Position numbers and translations under genes: made by a program. The notes under the pieces were generated by a model. That model ran no database searches. It was not told the DNA's origin and worked only from the letters and a program-made list of their open reading frames with translations. From Candidatus Nomurabacteria bacterium RIFCSPHIGHO2_02_40_30 (lineage in GTDB: Bacteria; Patescibacteriota; Minisyncoccia; Phycocordibacterales; UBA9973): 33,168 nucleotides of DNA. The stretch spans positions 1-33,168 of the forward strand of contig MFTV01000014.1 in the NCBI GenBank assembly GCA_001785445.1, written 5' to 3'. Below, in pieces: positions 1 through 33,168 of this stretch; the first letter of the stretch is position 1, and every line of letters begins with the position of its first letter.

Positions 1-320
1 GGGGGTCAGGCTCTCACCTCCCCTAGACGTCATAGCCTTGGTAGTCCATTACACTACCAACTAGCTGATATCGCACAGGCCTTTCCCGAAGCGTTAAAAC
101 TTTACTCTTGCGAGACTATCGTGTATTAGTCTACCTTTCGATAGATTATTCACGACTTCGGGGGAAGTTCCTGCGTATTACTACCTCGTTCGCCACTAAA
201 ATTTTGATATCATTGACCTTGATATAATCTCAATCTTTGACGATAAAATTTCCGTTCGACTTGCATGCCTTATCCACGCCGCCAGCGTTCATCCTGAGCT
301 AGGATCAAACTCTAACTAAA
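1..320 (-). rRNA. rrs: 16S ribosomal RNA, 5' part (cut by window edge)
   Basis: The reverse strand reads the universal 16S start AGAGTTTGATCCTAGCTCAG at 313-294, followed by the conserved GATGAACGCTGGCGGCG and the GCATGCAAGTCGAACGG segment. The first nucleotide of the mature RNA should lie near 320, by analogy with E. coli, where this motif starts at base 8. About 320 nt are present and the gene continues beyond position 1. The length to the edge is close to that of E. coli, so no intron is visible in this part. The 3' end with the anti-Shine-Dalgarno is outside the window. Confidence 0.97.
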
Positions 321-2217: not shown

Positions 2218-2230
2218 AGAGTACGGGCTA

Positions 2231-2338
2231 AGTATCTTTCCCCAAATCAATTCAGGGCTGGACTTGGCACCTTCTGTTGTCAGGGTTGCCGGTGGGTCAT
2301 GGAGCCAGTGCTCTCGCCACACTCTCGATAAATATTAA
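2231..2338 (-). ncRNA. SAM-I (S-box) riboswitch aptamer
   Basis: The minus strand shows the S-box consensus in order: TTATCGAGAG at the P1/P2 start, GAGAGCACTGGCTCCATGACCC, CCGGCAACC, AGGTGCCAAGTCCAGCCC, then a small P4 stem (GCCC/GGG) and AAAGATA closing P1. The order and spacing fit SAM-I rather than SAM-II or SAM-III. It lies between an extended -10 promoter and metK, the standard target. SAM binding should reduce metK expression through the hairpin at 2201-2217. Confidence 0.93.
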
Positions 2339-2349
2339 GTTGTGGGGAC

Positions 2350-2358
2350 ATTATAGCA
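2350..2358 (-). promoter_or_regulatory. metK extended -10 promoter TGCTATAAT
   Basis: TGCTATAAT on the minus strand (2358-2350). The start near 2343 is only a few nt before the riboswitch P1 stem. The -35 region is weak. Confidence 0.7.
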
Positions 2359-2367
2359 TACTTCTGC

Positions 2368-2745
2368 TTAAAACCAAATCTCTATAGAGAAATTAAATTC
2401 GGAGCCGTCGTAGAGATTCTCCTCATAACGAATTTCCTTTTTGAGTGGAAGGATATATGTGGCAGAATGCCTGTCGGGAAAAATAGAAGTTACCCATTCG
2501 TTCTTCTTAACCTTGGCCTTCGCATACACGGCGCCCCAGCCGCGCCTTTTTCTCCCCTTCTGCATTTCTTTTATCTTAGCCGATATCCCCTCCGGCACCC
2601 GCGCAAACCGCCATGCGCCAGCATCGCTCCCCTTCGCATGAGTCCCTGCATTCCAAATTATAACTTTACTTTTGAATTTGAAAGTGGTTTTTGCGAAATC
2701 TTTACCAGTTAGTCGTTTTATTTTTATTTTAGAATTTTTTTTCAT
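2368..2745 (-). CDS. DUF1905 domain protein, 125 aa
   Basis: Matches the DUF1905 beta-barrel family: FKFKSKVIIWNAG (residues 23-35), WRFARVPEGISAKIKEM, GRKRRGWGAVYAKAKVKKNEWVTSIFP (the conserved RRGFG..W.TSLFP block), YILPLKKEIRYEENLYDGSEFNFSIEI. DUF1905 proteins are small cytoplasmic proteins of unknown function. The basic N-terminal 20 residues (MKKNSKIKIKRLTGK) are an addition. A 10-bp hairpin (2754-2777) precedes the gene, and no -10 box of the local leaderless type is seen before the ATG, so it may be read through from the gene ending at 2806. A remnant of a second copy lies on the other side of that gene. Confidence 0.88.
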   Translation of the reverse strand: MKKNSKIKIKRLTGKDFAKTTFKFKSKVIIWNAGTHAKGSDAGAWRFARVPEGISAKIKEMQKGRKRRGWGAVYAKAKVKKNEWVTSIFPDRHSATYILPLKKEIRYEENLYDGSEFNFSIEIWF

Positions 2746-2753
2746 AAAACTAC

Positions 2754-2777
2754 TCTGGTATTCTTGAGAATACCAGA
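2754..2777 (-). terminator. Inverted repeat, possible weak terminator
   Basis: Perfect arms TCTGGTATTC (2754-2763) and GAATACCAGA (2768-2777) around the loop TTGA. It lies between the M23-like gene and DUF1905. The minus-strand side is followed by only four T (GTAGTTTTATG), so termination would be partial; it could instead shape the DUF1905 5' region. Confidence 0.5.
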
Positions 2778-2805
2778 ATGTTAAATTAAAACTTGTTAAA
2801 GAATA

Positions 2806-3660
2806 TTAACCCTCTATGGGGTCAAGTTTGATACAGCCGGGAATGGACTCTATTTCATTATATAAGGATGTGTCACCGGCATAATCCTCCCACGCTGTAT
2901 ATAAAGCAATAATCTTCTTTTGCATTTCCTCCTTAATGCTCGGGTCAAAATAGGCAAATGGACAAACATGCTGTGGCACTTGACCCCCTTTTAAAATCCC
3001 CATCTCAACCATACCAAATCCGGCAGGCAATCCTTGAGAAAAATCGCTAACCTCTCCTATTATCTGACCAGCTATTACTTTGTCGCCAACTTTAACCTTT
3101 GGATTTATAATATGTTCCGTCTCATAAATCCATTTTTCCATTTTTCCATTCTCTGTAACCTGAACAGAATAATCTCCACTCCAAAGGACCGGTATGCTAA
3201 CCACTATGCCATCAACCAAAGAACGTGCCGGTGTTCCGAGAGGCAATATAAAAGTTGGTTGCGGGTTATATTTTGCCGGTGAAGCTTCGCTAAATGGTAT
3301 AAAAAAACCATAGCCCATAAATAGCCGGTCGAACTGTAATTTTTCTTTTGTAAAAACAAAGTCGCCAGCACGATTGGTTGCGGAATTATAATAGTCAAGA
3401 TTAACACCAATACTTTTAATAAGTAGCGGGGGTGTATCGGTATTTGTTTTCACGATCACCTTTGGTTGGCTTGTGTTATTCGTGGTAATTGAAGCCTGCT
3501 CTTTCTGTGTTTTTGATATATTTGTTGTAACGCTAGGTTCGGTTTTTTCTATAACTTCTGTAGTAAAGGGAACTTGGACATTTTTTTGTTTCACCAAAAA
3601 AACTCCTCCTATTACCACAACACCAACAACAGCTAATGCTGTATAAATGTTTTTATTCAT
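2806..3660 (-). CDS. Exported M23-like (LytM-fold) protein, probably non-catalytic
   Basis: The protein has 284 residues. Residues 5-25 are a membrane anchor or uncleaved signal (ALAVVGVVVIGGVFLV), followed by a Thr/Ser/Lys-rich linker to about residue 75. The C-terminal part resembles the LytM/M23 barrel: LPLGTPARSLVDGIVVSI (compare GTPV.A..dG.V), YETEHI, VKVGDKVIAGQIIGEVSDF (compare V..Gd.V..Gq.IG..G) and GFGMVEMGI in place of the zinc-binding HxH stretch. The usual first HxxxD and the HxH are not visible, so peptidoglycan hydrolysis is unlikely; it may bind the cell wall or regulate another hydrolase. A TAAAAT -10 box 6 nt before the ATG supports the start. Confidence 0.65.
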   Translation of the reverse strand: MNKNIYTALAVVGVVVIGGVFLVKQKNVQVPFTTEVIEKTEPSVTTNISKTQKEQASITTNNTSQPKVIVKTNTDTPPLLIKSIGVNLDYYNSATNRAGDFVFTKEKLQFDRLFMGYGFFIPFSEASPAKYNPQPTFILPLGTPARSLVDGIVVSIPVLWSGDYSVQVTENGKMEKWIYETEHIINPKVKVGDKVIAGQIIGEVSDFSQGLPAGFGMVEMGILKGGQVPQHVCPFAYFDPSIKEEMQKKIIALYTAWEDYAGDTSLYNEIESIPGCIKLDPIEG

Positions 3661-3666
3661 ATTTAT

Positions 3667-3672
3667 ATTTTA
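3667..3672 (-). promoter_or_regulatory. -10 box TAAAAT, leaderless
   Basis: TAAAAT (3672-3667) ends 6 nt before the ATG at 3660, the same spacing as at other starts in this window. Confidence 0.5.
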
Positions 3673-3685
3673 CCGCTCTTAGCAT

Positions 3686-3766
3686 TTAAATACTATAGAC
3701 ATAATTCCCCGCATTCCAGACAATTACTCTGCTTTTGAATTTGAATTTTGCCTTAGATTTTTTCAT
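3686..3766 (-). pseudogene. DUF1905 gene remnant (N-terminal 21 codons)
   Basis: A 26-codon reading frame encodes MKKSKAKFKFKSRVIVWNAG and then six unrelated residues and a stop. It matches residues 23-35 of the complete DUF1905 protein encoded at 2368-2745 (FKFKSKVIIWNAG), with several synonymous and conservative differences, so it descends from a diverged paralogue rather than a recent copy. The ATG is 3 nt after the stop of the GIY-YIG gene, so it once was the next gene in that operon. The rest of the domain is gone. Confidence 0.75.
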
Positions 3767-3769
3767 TTT

Positions 3770-4606
3770 CTATTTTCTTAAGTTTTCATCAAGAGTATTT
3801 CCTTTATCGTCTTTCCATGCTCCCCATCCATTTGTTGAACGTCCAGCTATGGTATCACTAGCAGCACTTGGGCTAGTAAAAATATGATCTTGAGTAAAGA
3901 TATACGATTTATCGTTAATTTTTTTCAAGATACCGTCCTCGATAAGTCTACTTCGTAAACGTGGTCCACTTCCACCAAAACTTTTCGTTTGTTCAATTCG
4001 AGCTAATGACCCTTTAAAAACCACAAACTCATTAGTGTCTGATATAGTACCTTTTCCAGACCCATCTTTATTTTTTACATCTTCAAAATGATAGGTAACG
4101 GAACTTTTTTTGTTTACTATTTCATCAAAAAGTTTATAACCAAAAAGACCAGTTATGGAACGAACACGATCAAAGTAATCAGAGACAGTTATTTTTTGAG
4201 CTTCAGAAAGTTTATTTTCTTTTGGTATAGTTGAATTAAAAACCTCGTAACGATTTGCACGTTTTGCTAAACTCAAAGAAACACTTTCCAGATATTTTAT
4301 AAGTGCAGCATCAAGTTTACCCACGAATACAAGAGCAGTATTCCACTCATCTATTTCACGATTTGCATCATGAGAAAAAAGTCTATCAACTACATTTTCT
4401 GATTGACCAATATAAGCCTTTGGATGTTCATCCCCCTCACCAAATAAAAAATAAAGCCCCGGCTGTTGAGCATCTTCACGTTGTCGAAAATCTTTTAACT
4501 TTGTCCTAGGAACCACAAAAGCCTTCCCAGACCAAGTATCCATTTCAATAAGTCTAAGACCTTCTGGGTTATCATCTAGTAAAATTACTGTTATTACTCG
4601 TGCCAT
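3770..4606 (-). CDS. GIY-YIG nuclease-fold protein with C-terminal DUF4357
   Basis: The protein has 278 residues. The N-terminal domain carries the GIY-YIG signature as GLYFLF (residues 50-55) and AYIGQSENVVDRLFSH, including the conserved Arg. A Glu in KYLESVSL fits the metal-binding acidic position. The C-terminal part (about 190-270) matches DUF4357: FVVFKGSLARIE, SRLIEDGILK, YIFTQDHIFTSPSAAS, GRSTNGWGAWK. This architecture occurs in bacterial proteins tentatively linked to DNA repair or restriction, without proven targets. It is probably co-transcribed with the DUF167 gene 34 nt upstream; no promoter is seen directly before it. Confidence 0.88.
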   Translation of the reverse strand: MARVITVILLDDNPEGLRLIEMDTWSGKAFVVPRTKLKDFRQREDAQQPGLYFLFGEGDEHPKAYIGQSENVVDRLFSHDANREIDEWNTALVFVGKLDAALIKYLESVSLSLAKRANRYEVFNSTIPKENKLSEAQKITVSDYFDRVRSITGLFGYKLFDEIVNKKSSVTYHFEDVKNKDGSGKGTISDTNEFVVFKGSLARIEQTKSFGGSGPRLRSRLIEDGILKKINDKSYIFTQDHIFTSPSAASDTIAGRSTNGWGAWKDDKGNTLDENLRK

Positions 4607-4640
4607 AACTTATCAATTCTACCCCAACCCACCCCCAAAC

Positions 4641-4862
4641 TCAATCCACCACAATGAGCTTGCTTGGGCTCCGATGCCCATTAACAATACGGACGCGATT
4701 AACCGGAACTTTGAAATACTCTGCCACGAGTTCAAGGACGCGAGTATTTGCCATATTGCGCTCGGCTTTTTCGCGGACGGAGATTTCAAAATGGTCGGGA
4801 GATTTAATTTTGAAAGATTCCTTCCCTACCCCGGTGGTAACCTTTACATGAATGTAGAGCAT
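4641..4862 (-). CDS. DUF167 (YggU-like) family protein
   Basis: A 73-residue protein covering the whole DUF167 fold: YIHVKVTTGVGKESF (first strand pair), FEISVREKAERNMANTRVLELVAEYFKVPVNRVRIVNGHRSPSKLIVV. The conserved A....AN..ll..la..f.v....v.i..G..sr.K pattern is clear. The family is widespread and has no assigned biochemical role. A TGTTAGAAT extended -10 box ending 7 nt before the ATG supports this start and a leaderless mRNA that continues into the GIY-YIG gene. Confidence 0.9.
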   Translation of the reverse strand: MLYIHVKVTTGVGKESFKIKSPDHFEISVREKAERNMANTRVLELVAEYFKVPVNRVRIVNGHRSPSKLIVVD

Positions 4863-4869
4863 GATCTTT

Positions 4870-4878
4870 ATTCTAACA
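4870..4878 (-). promoter_or_regulatory. Extended -10 promoter TGTTAGAAT, leaderless
   Basis: TGTTAGAAT (4878-4870) on the minus strand, 7 nt before the ATG at 4862. It is back to back with the plus-strand promoter at 4900-4928. Confidence 0.55.
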
Positions 4879-4899
4879 TTTAAATGAAATTCTCTAGGC

Positions 4900-4928
4900 T
4901 TGTATCAATACACCTTAAATGATATAAT
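4900..4928 (+). promoter_or_regulatory. Promoter of the Doc toxin-antitoxin pair, leaderless
   Basis: -35 TTGTAT (4900-4905), 17 bp, -10 TATAAT (4923-4928) preceded by TGA (extended -10). The ATG at 4936 follows 7 nt after the -10 box. Confidence 0.7.
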
Positions 4929-4935
4929 TGAGCCT

Positions 4936-5094
4936 ATGAAGAAATTACTTAGAAAAATCTTTAAAAAGAAAGAAAATCCAATCTCCAGACAAAAAGACAT
5001 CAAGCAAACAACTAATGCTGTTTTTGAAGAGTACAAGACAACTTTCAAAGACTTGGCTCGTTATGACAGAGGAGAAAAAATCTCAACCAATTAG
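4936..5094 (+). CDS. Probable antitoxin of the Doc-type toxin
   Basis: A 52-residue protein with a very basic N-terminus (MKKLLRKIFKKKENPISRQK) and a short helical tail (TNAVFEEYKTTFKDLARYDRG). No family is recognised with certainty. It is the first gene under a strong promoter and overlaps the downstream Doc-family gene by 32 nt. This size, order and overlap are typical of an antitoxin that neutralises the Doc toxin and represses the pair. The upstream ATG at 4900 lies in the -35 box and is rejected; the ATG at 4936 fits the leaderless rule seen elsewhere in the window. Confidence 0.6.
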   Translation: MKKLLRKIFKKKENPISRQKDIKQTTNAVFEEYKTTFKDLARYDRGEKISTN

Positions 5095-25227: not shown

Positions 25228-25298
25228 TGCGGGTTCGTCTAATGGTAGGACACATCCCTCTGGAGGATGGTATTGGGGTTCGAGTCCCTGACCCGCAG
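25228..25298 (+). tRNA. tRNA-Gln (anticodon CTG)
   Basis: Full cloverleaf: acceptor TGCGGGT/ACCCGCA, D stem GTC/GAC, anticodon stem CATCC/GGATG with loop CTCTGGA (anticodon CTG after U33), T loop TTCGAGT with stem TGGGG/CCCTG (two wobbles), discriminator G. The T1-A72 first pair is typical of tRNA-Gln. CCA is not encoded. A TATTAT box at 25211-25216 is a plausible -10. Confidence 0.93.
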
Positions 25299-25307
25299 CT
25301 CGTATTT

Positions 25308-31890: not shown

Positions 31891-32772
31891 CTATAAATTT
31901 TTCTCTGCCTCCACGAAAATATCAATCTCTCCATTTAGGACAGCTTCAGCATTTGAAGTTTCCACACCTGTCCTATGGTCTTTAACCATTTTATAAGGAT
32001 GGAGTACATACGAGCGAATTTGACTCCCCCATTCTATCTCGGTGTTTTTCAACTTCATGCTCTCTTCTATACTTTTTTTGTTTTCTTCCGCTTTTTTGAA
32101 AATTTTGGCGCGCAAAATAGCAAGTGCAAACTGTCGATTTTGTTCTTGGCTACGCTCACCAGAAGCATGGACAGAAATACCGGTCGGCATATGCACAATT
32201 CGCACTGCTGTTTCTCTTTTGTTGACATTCTGCCCTCCGGGCCCGCTGGAACGGGAAAATTCTATTTTCAAGTCCTCTGGCAAGAGAACAATATCTTTCT
32301 CTTCCAGCAAGGAAAATTTCGGCAAAACTTCAACCAAAGAAAAAGAAGTGTGCCGTAACTTTTTTGCATTAAAAGGAGAAATACGCACCAAGCGATGCAC
32401 TCCGGACTCACTTTTAAGCAGGCCATAGACTCCTTTGCCCACAAGCTCAAAAGAAACATTTTTATATCCACCATGTTCATTTTTATGCTCATGGATGAAA
32501 CTAATTTTCCAGCCTTTTTTATTTGCATATTTCATATACATGGACAAAAGCATGGCTCCGAAATCTTCCGCATCGTCCCCGCCAGCGCCGGAAATTATTG
32601 TTATGATTGCACTACCTTTGTCGTATTTGTTGGCGCCTGCCTTCTTGTTTTTGAGCTCCGCGAGCTCTTTCAAAATACTTTGTGCTTTATTTTTATCACC
32701 CCAAAAATCAGAAGCCTGTATCTCCTTTTCCAATTTATCTATTTGTTTTTGAATATCATTTTCTTTCTCCAT
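31891..32772 (-). CDS. prfB: Peptide chain release factor 2, short form without frameshift leader
   Basis: The protein has 293 residues. Recognises UGA and UAA stops. The RF2 anticodon-like SPF is at 132-134 (VRISPFNAKK) and the catalytic GGQ at 179-181 (SGPGGQNVNK), followed by HASGERSQEQNRQFALAIL and WGSQIRSYVLHPYKMVKDHRTGVET. Usual length is about 365. Here the segment before the frameshift site of other bacteria is missing and domain 1 is cut by about 60 residues (DKLEKEIQASDFWGDKNKAQSILKEL is what remains). The ATG is 2 nt from the last base of tRNA-Thr, and no upstream start exists in frame before a stop in the tRNA. Confidence 0.95.
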   Translation of the reverse strand: MEKENDIQKQIDKLEKEIQASDFWGDKNKAQSILKELAELKNKKAGANKYDKGSAIITIISGAGGDDAEDFGAMLLSMYMKYANKKGWKISFIHEHKNEHGGYKNVSFELVGKGVYGLLKSESGVHRLVRISPFNAKKLRHTSFSLVEVLPKFSLLEEKDIVLLPEDLKIEFSRSSGPGGQNVNKRETAVRIVHMPTGISVHASGERSQEQNRQFALAILRAKIFKKAEENKKSIEESMKLKNTEIEWGSQIRSYVLHPYKMVKDHRTGVETSNAEAVLNGEIDIFVEAEKNL

Positions 32773-32773
32773 G

Positions 32774-32844
32774 AGCCGAAAGTGGGAATCGAACCCACGT
32801 TCCTACTTTACGAAAGTAGTGTTCTGCCACTGAACTATATCGGC
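32774..32844 (-). tRNA. tRNA-Thr (anticodon CGT)
   Basis: The minus strand folds as acceptor GCCGATA/TTTCGGC (one T-T mismatch at pair 6), D stem GTTC/GAAC, anticodon stem CTACT/AGTAG with loop TTCGTAA (anticodon CGT), T stem GTGGG/CCCAC with loop TTCGATT. CCA is not encoded. Only one base separates its 3' end from the prfB ATG. A TATAAC -10 candidate lies at 32862-32857. Confidence 0.93.
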
Positions 32845-32908
32845 AAGCTTTGAGTGGTTATATGATTCCGCTCGAACTTACTTTATCAAAAATTCATAAG
32901 GAACTCCA

Positions 32909-32979
32909 GCGTGCCTCGCGCGTGCTACGCACGCCTGTGTATACACACAGTTTCTCCAAAGGAGAAAAGCGAGGCACGC
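32909..32979. repeat. Four-way cloverleaf inverted-repeat element
   Basis: An 11-bp perfect closing stem (32909-32919 with 32969-32979, GCGTGCCTCGC/GCGAGGCACGC) encloses three perfect hairpins. Hairpin 1: GCGTGC/GCACGC, loop TAC (32920-32934). Hairpin 2: CTGTGT/ACACAG, loop ATAC (32935-32950). Hairpin 3: TTTCTCC/GGAGAAA, loop AAA (32951-32967). The stems follow each other with no unpaired base except one A at 32968. It can fold as RNA or as extruded DNA on either strand. Confidence 0.85.
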
Positions 32980-32985
32980 AATGCA

Positions 32986-33021
32986 CCGAACGGCTCAAAT
33001 GGCAGGAAATGAGCCGTTCGG
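32986..33021. repeat. 12-bp inverted repeat
   Basis: Arms CCGAACGGCTCA (32986-32997) and TGAGCCGTTCGG (33010-33021), perfect, 12-nt loop. It starts 7 nt after the cloverleaf. Confidence 0.85.
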
Positions 33022-33030
33022 AAAAATGGA

Positions 33031-33080
33031 CGAGGTTTTGCAAAAACTATTTTCTGGGGAAAGGATTTTGCAAAACTTCG
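33031..33080. repeat. 15-bp inverted repeat
   Basis: Arms 33031-33045 and 33066-33080; the inner 11 bp (GTTTTGCAAAA/TTTTGCAAAAC) are perfect and the outer four include one G-T pair. Each arm itself contains the palindrome TTTTGCAAAA. The 20-nt loop can form TTTC/GAAA. Confidence 0.75.
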
Positions 33081-33113
33081 GCTAATGTTTTTGAAATTCG
33101 GCGGGGGCTGAAT

Positions 33114-33152
33114 CCCGCGCGGAGGAGGGGTCTGGGGAGGAATCCGCGCGGG
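33114..33152. repeat. 10-bp GC-rich inverted repeat, terminator-like on plus strand
   Basis: Arms CCCGCGCGGA (33114-33123) and TCCGCGCGGG (33143-33152), perfect, 19-nt purine-rich loop. CATTTTT follows on the plus strand, so a plus-strand RNA could end here. Confidence 0.75.
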
Positions 33153-33168
33153 CATTTTTGGAGAGGGA

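Follow-up and report, generated by a model that had tools for sequence, protein, structure and literature searches.

The window analysed here is a stretch of 33,168 nucleotides from Candidatus Nomurabacteria bacterium RIFCSPHIGHO2_02_40_30. Towards its end, the gene prfB (31891-32772, minus strand) is located after tRNA-Thr(CGT) (32773..32844, minus strand), which was identified by ARAGORN, by Rfam (RF00005) and by synteny in relatives. Judged by the relatives of this prfB, the window belongs to Candidatus Nomurabacteria. Next to this tRNA gene we found a terminal inverted repeat (32852..33168, plus strand), which we call the A arm, or cargo-side arm, on the basis of the arm anatomy in 15 complete loci. 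The A arm begins near 32852, with 8 bp between it and the tRNA-Thr(CGT) 5' end. It is more than 300 bp long and is truncated at 33168, where the contig stops because the arm is a repeat. The tRNA-Thr(CGT) gene represents the chromosomal flank past the cargo end of an integrated element, and the cargo and the second arm of this element lie outside the window's contig. At the opposite contig end, we found the 5' part of a 16S rRNA gene (1-320, minus strand), so both contig ends fall in hard-to-assemble sequence. A SAM riboswitch was also observed at 2229-2334 (minus strand), upstream of a metK-like gene.

Within the A arm, a cloverleaf is located at 32909-32979 (plus strand), and it was characterised by folding, a covariance model and covariation. 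Its 11-bp closing stem (32909-32919/32969-32979) encloses hairpin 1 (32920-32934; 6 bp, TAC loop), hairpin 2 (32935-32950; 6 bp, ATAC loop) and hairpin 3 (32951-32967; 7 bp, AAA loop), and the sole unpaired base outside the loops is the A at 32968. The preliminary description of this DNA had reported a 71-bp four-way cloverleaf in a gene-free region, and we recovered the same stems and hairpins, all 30 of 30 pairs Watson-Crick, in an intergenic position. It had also held that these are not chance hairpins, and none of 200 dinucleotide shuffles matched the folding energy of the cloverleaf. This energy was -45.3 kcal/mol as RNA of the plus strand, -46.3 as RNA of the minus strand and -31.4 as DNA (z -8.8, -8.7 and -9.4, respectively, against the 200 shuffles). 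We also searched 1.04 Mb of fetched related loci for the same topology, defined as three hairpins inside an outer stem with 8 or more base pairs and no mismatch. Besides the cloverleaf family, this returned tRNA genes and a small number of weak folds. Outside the cloverleaf family, only one tRNA (-36.4) reached -36 kcal/mol in this search.

The cloverleaf is neither a tRNA, as the preliminary description had recognised, nor a known RNA. ARAGORN and Rfam called only 25228-25299 and 32773-32844 as tRNAs in the window, where a tRNA gene would show an anticodon, a T-loop and a 7-bp acceptor stem. Against Rfam it gave no match at the gathering score, and at E values up to 1 only microRNA noise.

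The cloverleaf is one module of a longer folded arm, which begins near 32852 and continues as far as the contig does (309 nt; z -12.9 when folded as DNA). The recombination core GAG (32852..32854; CTC on the minus strand) was located by comparing the window with contig C11 of the same genome and with filled and empty relatives. It matches the target, tRNA-Thr(GGT), at its 3' end (...GGCTC(CA)), and its length in the window is probably 3 bp. The attachment half-site of the A arm, of the Thr type (32852..32907, plus strand), was defined by comparing arm termini and the regions upstream of cloverleaf copies. Its conserved stretch CCGCTCGAACTTACTTTATCAAAAATT (32868-32894) is common to the arms of other Thr-targeting elements. 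The cloverleaf is located 50-60 nt from the core of this serine-recombinase element, and three further hairpins, all on the plus strand, come after it. A 12-bp perfect hairpin, CCGAACGGCTCA/TGAGCCGTTCGG, has a 12-nt loop (32986..33021); the sister copy on contig C5 carries a hairpin of other sequence at the same place. The long hairpin CGAGGTTTTGCAAAA/TTTTGCAAAACTTCG (33031..33080) has a loop that includes TCTGGGGA, and hairpins like it were found in most A arms. Finally, the 10-bp hairpin CCCGCGCGGA/TCCGCGCGGG (33114..33152) carries the purine loop GGAGGGGTCTGGGGAGGAAT (33124-33143), which is conserved and nearly mirror-symmetric. This loop is kept on about 27 different stems, a count that depends on the chosen register. 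In a pattern search across the phylum, the loop read backwards had no match in 380 genomes. The purine-loop hairpin is a phylum-wide signature of A arms.

We then examined copies of these structures in the genome, the genus and the order. A second cloverleaf copy (93% over 87 bp) was found at the end of contig C5 of the same genome, and arms related to that of the window are located on contigs C2 and C3. Matches to the arm occur in 52/80 genomes of the genus, many of them as inverted pairs 2-6 kb apart. Self-comparison showed that paired arms are 82-100% identical within a locus and flank unrelated genes. Since MAFFT left divergent cloverleafs out of register, we used a covariance model of the cloverleaf built from five copies. 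It gave 44 matches in 21 of the 80 genus genomes (a few are both-strand duplicates), never more than 5 in one genome. Applied to a sample of the order, the model identified the cloverleaf in 22/397 genomes from 14 genera. The cloverleaf copies adjoin attachment half-sites. An assembly artefact at a contig end, which the preliminary description had named as counting against the structure, was rejected, because complete contiguous copies exist in relatives.

About half of the inspected A arms contain no cloverleaf. Thus, the cloverleaf is not essential to every element, and the purine-loop hairpin is the more general feature of A arms. Cloverleaf types and half-site types are freely combined, so the cloverleaf module appears to have been exchanged between elements. 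Another kind of hairpin, the GGCTCAAAT...ATGAGCC type, forms inverted pairs 0.6-1.1 kb apart at other sites. One such pair is located in G000:C2 (249-283 and 853-897), and similar pairs were observed in G070:C28, G069:C27, G055:C16 and G072:C85. One of the C2 hairpins of the GGCTCAAAT type lies inside a gene, whose product has a low-complexity N-terminus and relatives that recur as cargo.

The 15 complete loci follow one plan. The first half runs from the tRNA 3' end through a core to the B arm, a large serine recombinase and the inverted B arm; the second half consists of an inverted core, the A arm, the cargo, the inverted A arm and a direct core. The second inverted repeat, around the serine recombinase, abuts the cargo-side repeat in the larger regions, and A and B arms overlap by 3-6 bp at the junction in 11/15 composites. 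The core consists of the last bases of the target tRNA, and in six loci the sequence itself shows the inverted core in the middle. The tRNA 3' end is repeated at the far end of the element as GGCAC, CGCAC, TCAC, GCAC or CCGC, and at tRNA-Thr the core is CTC/CTCC. The 15 composites measure 3.7-9.5 kb; the recombinase has its 3' end toward the tRNA in all 15, and the tRNA lies within 25 bp in 14 of them. Four of the 15 loci were reached by the purine-loop sequence alone, three of these in distant families of the phylum. Recombinase domains, a short direct core and an empty target site were all found, which places the element among the integrative elements of large serine recombinases. We also observed cargo-only versions beside a tRNA without a recombinase, L307 (G325:C3) and L186 (G057:C13), the latter with a duplicated tRNA-Ser(GCT).

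The recombinases of three complete loci contain Resolvase, Recombinase and zinc-ribbon domains (PF00239, PF07508, PF13408), and the recombinase on contig C11 of the window's own genome was found by its similarity to those of complete loci. A tRNA is located at the recombinase 3' end in 43/51 cases, covering at least 11 isotypes. The target isotype clusters on the tree of the 51 recombinases (26 changes versus a shuffled mean of 35.2), with targets labelled by a nearest-tRNA rule that is wrong in a few cases. Specifically, it labelled C11 as Asp, where the true target is Thr(GGT), and L177 and L308 as Cys, where the true target is Leu.

The window's own element was traced to tRNA-Thr(GGT). Contig C11 carries tRNA-Thr(GGT), a B arm and a recombinase in this order, and the window carries an A arm, tRNA-Thr(CGT) and prfB. 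The C11 recombinase groups with two tRNA-Thr-targeting recombinases (100/100), and the A arms of those two elements share the half-site with the window. In many relatives, tRNA-Thr(GGT) and tRNA-Thr(CGT) are adjacent, with a spacing of at most 200 bp, and several of these pairs lie directly before prfB. In genome G033, the same insertion is filled on one contig, with a tRNA-Thr spacing of 2032 bp. From this layout, the shared half-site and G033, we read C11 and the window as the likely two ends of one element at tRNA-Thr(GGT). Contig C2 was considered as the cargo of this element and rejected, since its arms differ. In L051 (G002:C38, about 2245-5000), the start of prfB apparently flanks an element after tRNA-Thr(CGT) on either side, which looks like duplication or capture of the neighbouring host gene.

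The cargo analysed comprises 85 proteins. They include DNA methyltransferases, other restriction-modification parts, Shedu and a PemK-like toxin, and further families are peptidase S51, Nudix, aminotransferases and prephenate dehydratase. An SF1 helicase-nuclease was found in the L187 cargo. Between the A arms of G000:C2 (L176; 3356-6523), we observed genes for a class IV aminotransferase and a prephenate dehydratase-like protein, a cargo for amino-acid metabolism rather than defence. Replication, capsid and phage structural families were not found among the 25 commonest cargo families listed. A plain transposon was rejected, as there is no transposase among the commonest cargo families listed and the recombinase lies outside the cargo arms. 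A viral, plasmid or phage origin was rejected as well, since the element has no match in PLSDB, INPHARED or IMG/VR.

Taken together, the locus is almost certainly a structured arm of a tRNA-targeting serine-recombinase element. As the best explanation overall, the cloverleaf is probably one module of the A arm in a small patescibacterial integrative element. The anatomy of the element, its targeting of tRNA genes, the empty and filled sites and the covariation of the fold are direct observations. The function of the fold is most likely that of folded DNA in the mobility or replication of the element. This agrees in part with the preliminary description, which had offered three readings. Of the three, the best fit is folded single-stranded DNA that serves as a recombination or replication site, since the fold lies near the core and its stems covary. 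A structured RNA is less favoured, since the cloverleaf has no G.U preference and no Rfam match. A palindromic element as in Rickettsia is not supported as such, since the copies sit in terminal inverted repeats and not singly in genes.

Conservation of the fold was assessed in 33 distinct cloverleaf rows, in which 96.5% of the cells are paired and both-sided changes occur in 27/31 pairs. Compensatory changes in homologues, proposed earlier as a check, are present in all four stems across these 33 copies from the covariance model. Covariation was 0.479, compared with at most 0.109 for slid controls and 0/500 shuffles, the absolute values being inflated by an alignment fitted to the structure. 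Helix slides and shuffles were used as the control because covariance-model matches lean to structure, and the arms were found via tRNA-recombinase loci, independently of the structure-fitted alignment. The hairpin-2 loop is GAA in 17/31 copies, mostly within GCGAAGC, which also occurs in a copy with its whole stem replaced. As a DNA mini-hairpin, d(GCGAAGC) has extraordinary stability (PMC4686876).

Whether DNA or RNA is the selected form was judged from mispairs and loops. The rather unlikely RNA reading holds that the arms encode a structured RNA (antisense, guide or scaffold, read inwards from each end), with the cloverleaf and purine hairpins as RNA folds. Strong covariation speaks for it, as does a conserved loop on changing stems, which is typical of RNAs; the AGGAGG within the purine loop could base-pair with 16S rRNA, and the G.T excess in purine-loop hairpins (G.T 9 versus A.C 4) points weakly to RNA. 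However, cloverleaf mispairs are strand-symmetric and equally rare (G.T 12, A.C 13), a balance to be expected when selection acts on the RNA of neither strand, and wobble amounts to about 1-2%, compared with 6% in tRNAs folded likewise. The mostly short, DNA-like loops (GAA, AAA, TAC), the two inward-facing copies per element and the Rfam result also argue against RNA. We therefore lean to a cloverleaf fold that acts at the DNA level, although not strongly. Selection itself is denied by an improbable explanation, in which mutation keeps the hairpins perfect: template switching in palindromes copies one arm from the other and can create and maintain compensated stems during replication, that is, covariation without function (PMC8794818). 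The two arms of the G076 element differ by replacement of a whole hairpin and are still perfectly paired, which speaks for this explanation. Nevertheless, the purine loop is conserved phylum-wide while stems change, and the three-hairpin layout and its distance to the core are kept between elements, with the module present in 14 genera. Mutation alone would not conserve loops and layout, which speaks for selection besides template switching.

The inverted cores flank both the recombinase half and the cargo half, and the arms are near-identical within an element, which would suit an inversion switch, in which the recombinase turns genes on or off by inverting either the cargo or its own gene between the cores. 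Both orientations would be expected of such a segment, but the recombinase has one orientation to the tRNA in 15/15, and empty and filled sites indicate insertion and not only inversion; an element that is mainly such a switch is accordingly improbable too. A dispersed palindromic repeat of the REP/BIME or Rickettsia type, unrelated to the recombinase, is hardly credible. There are many small hairpins in these genomes, and IS200-like (Y1) proteins apparently lie near some loci (by eye only). Instead of the high copy numbers of REP/BIME, we found no more matches per genome than given above, all adjoining half-sites, and no in-frame insertions in protein genes of the Rickettsia kind.

For the integrative element, we propose the following mechanism. 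The recombinase would insert the element at the 3' end of a tRNA gene, and could excise it as a circle via its two direct cores. This predicted circle would carry two inverted copies of 'A arm-core-B arm', which are attP-like and would separate the recombinase half from the cargo half. The arms may fold as DNA, single-stranded or cruciform, during replication, exchange or transfer, and the conserved loops may be displayed for a protein. The folded ends could, for example, serve as a structural origin or as a packaging or exchange signal while the element is single-stranded. That the fold specifically helps to replicate or amplify the excised form, and not to recombine or transfer it, is a tentative suggestion. 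Similarly tentative is a broader proposal, that phylum-wide mobile elements keep inverted ends and use them as multi-branched folded DNA (cloverleaf and purine-loop hairpins). Each such element would have two attP sites in inverted orientation and a serine recombinase specialised for tRNA 3' ends. If true, bacterial chromosomes would offer few precedents for a structure this complex being selected as DNA.

The folded single-stranded attC sites of integrons, which mobilise gene cassettes, are likewise conserved in structure rather than sequence. The attC site is a single imperfect hairpin used by a tyrosine integrase, whereas here the enzyme belongs to the serine recombinases and some 50 nt separate the fold from the core. 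Genomic islands and integrative and mobilizable elements that insert at tRNA 3' ends share the target, direct cores, accessory cargo and a recombinase by the attachment site, but according to a review of them their enzymes are tyrosine integrases, and it is dispensable genes that are disrupted by serine-recombinase elements (PMC5704250). The elements described here combine a serine recombinase that targets tRNA 3' ends with folded arms in two nested inverted repeats, and we saw no relaxase in them. Serine-integrase prophages (mycobacteriophage Int-S) also have a large serine recombinase and a core of few bp, but mycobacteriophage serine integrases are stated not to integrate in tRNA genes (PMC9262239), and phage structural genes are absent from the commonest cargo families listed here. 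Tycheposons are likewise tRNA-bordered islands with accessory cargo in streamlined bacteria, but they use a tyrosine recombinase and span 4-200 kb, and folded inverted-repeat arms are not described in the accessible part of the source (PMC10872708). In the yeast 2-micron plasmid, as in the predicted circle, long inverted repeats that hold the recombination site split the two halves, and the recombinase gene lies next to the repeats (PMC3147054). That plasmid differs in that FLP is a tyrosine recombinase and it is not tRNA-integrated. The likeness would be one of layout, and a recombinase oriented alike at every locus speaks against frequent inversion. To our knowledge, serine integrases normally do not recombine attP with attP, so inversion of the 2-micron kind is unproven.

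No description of this element in Patescibacteria was found in the open literature. Within that literature, it is a previously undescribed kind of small tRNA-targeting integrative element. Given the serine recombinase at tRNA 3' ends and the other comparisons, we file it among integrative elements as a variant, which departs from the pattern of serine integrases avoiding tRNA genes (PMC5704250, PMC9262239). In Patescibacteria, whose genomes are small, few mobile elements have been characterised. The one described here is widespread, bringing restriction-modification, Shedu, toxin and metabolic genes within nested structured inverted repeats. Furthermore, it supplies recombinases already matched to their attachment sites for at least 11 tRNA isotypes, and a clean test case of whether evolution conserves complex DNA rather than RNA folds. 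Its location at tRNA genes also explains the frequent assembly breaks beside tRNA genes in this group.
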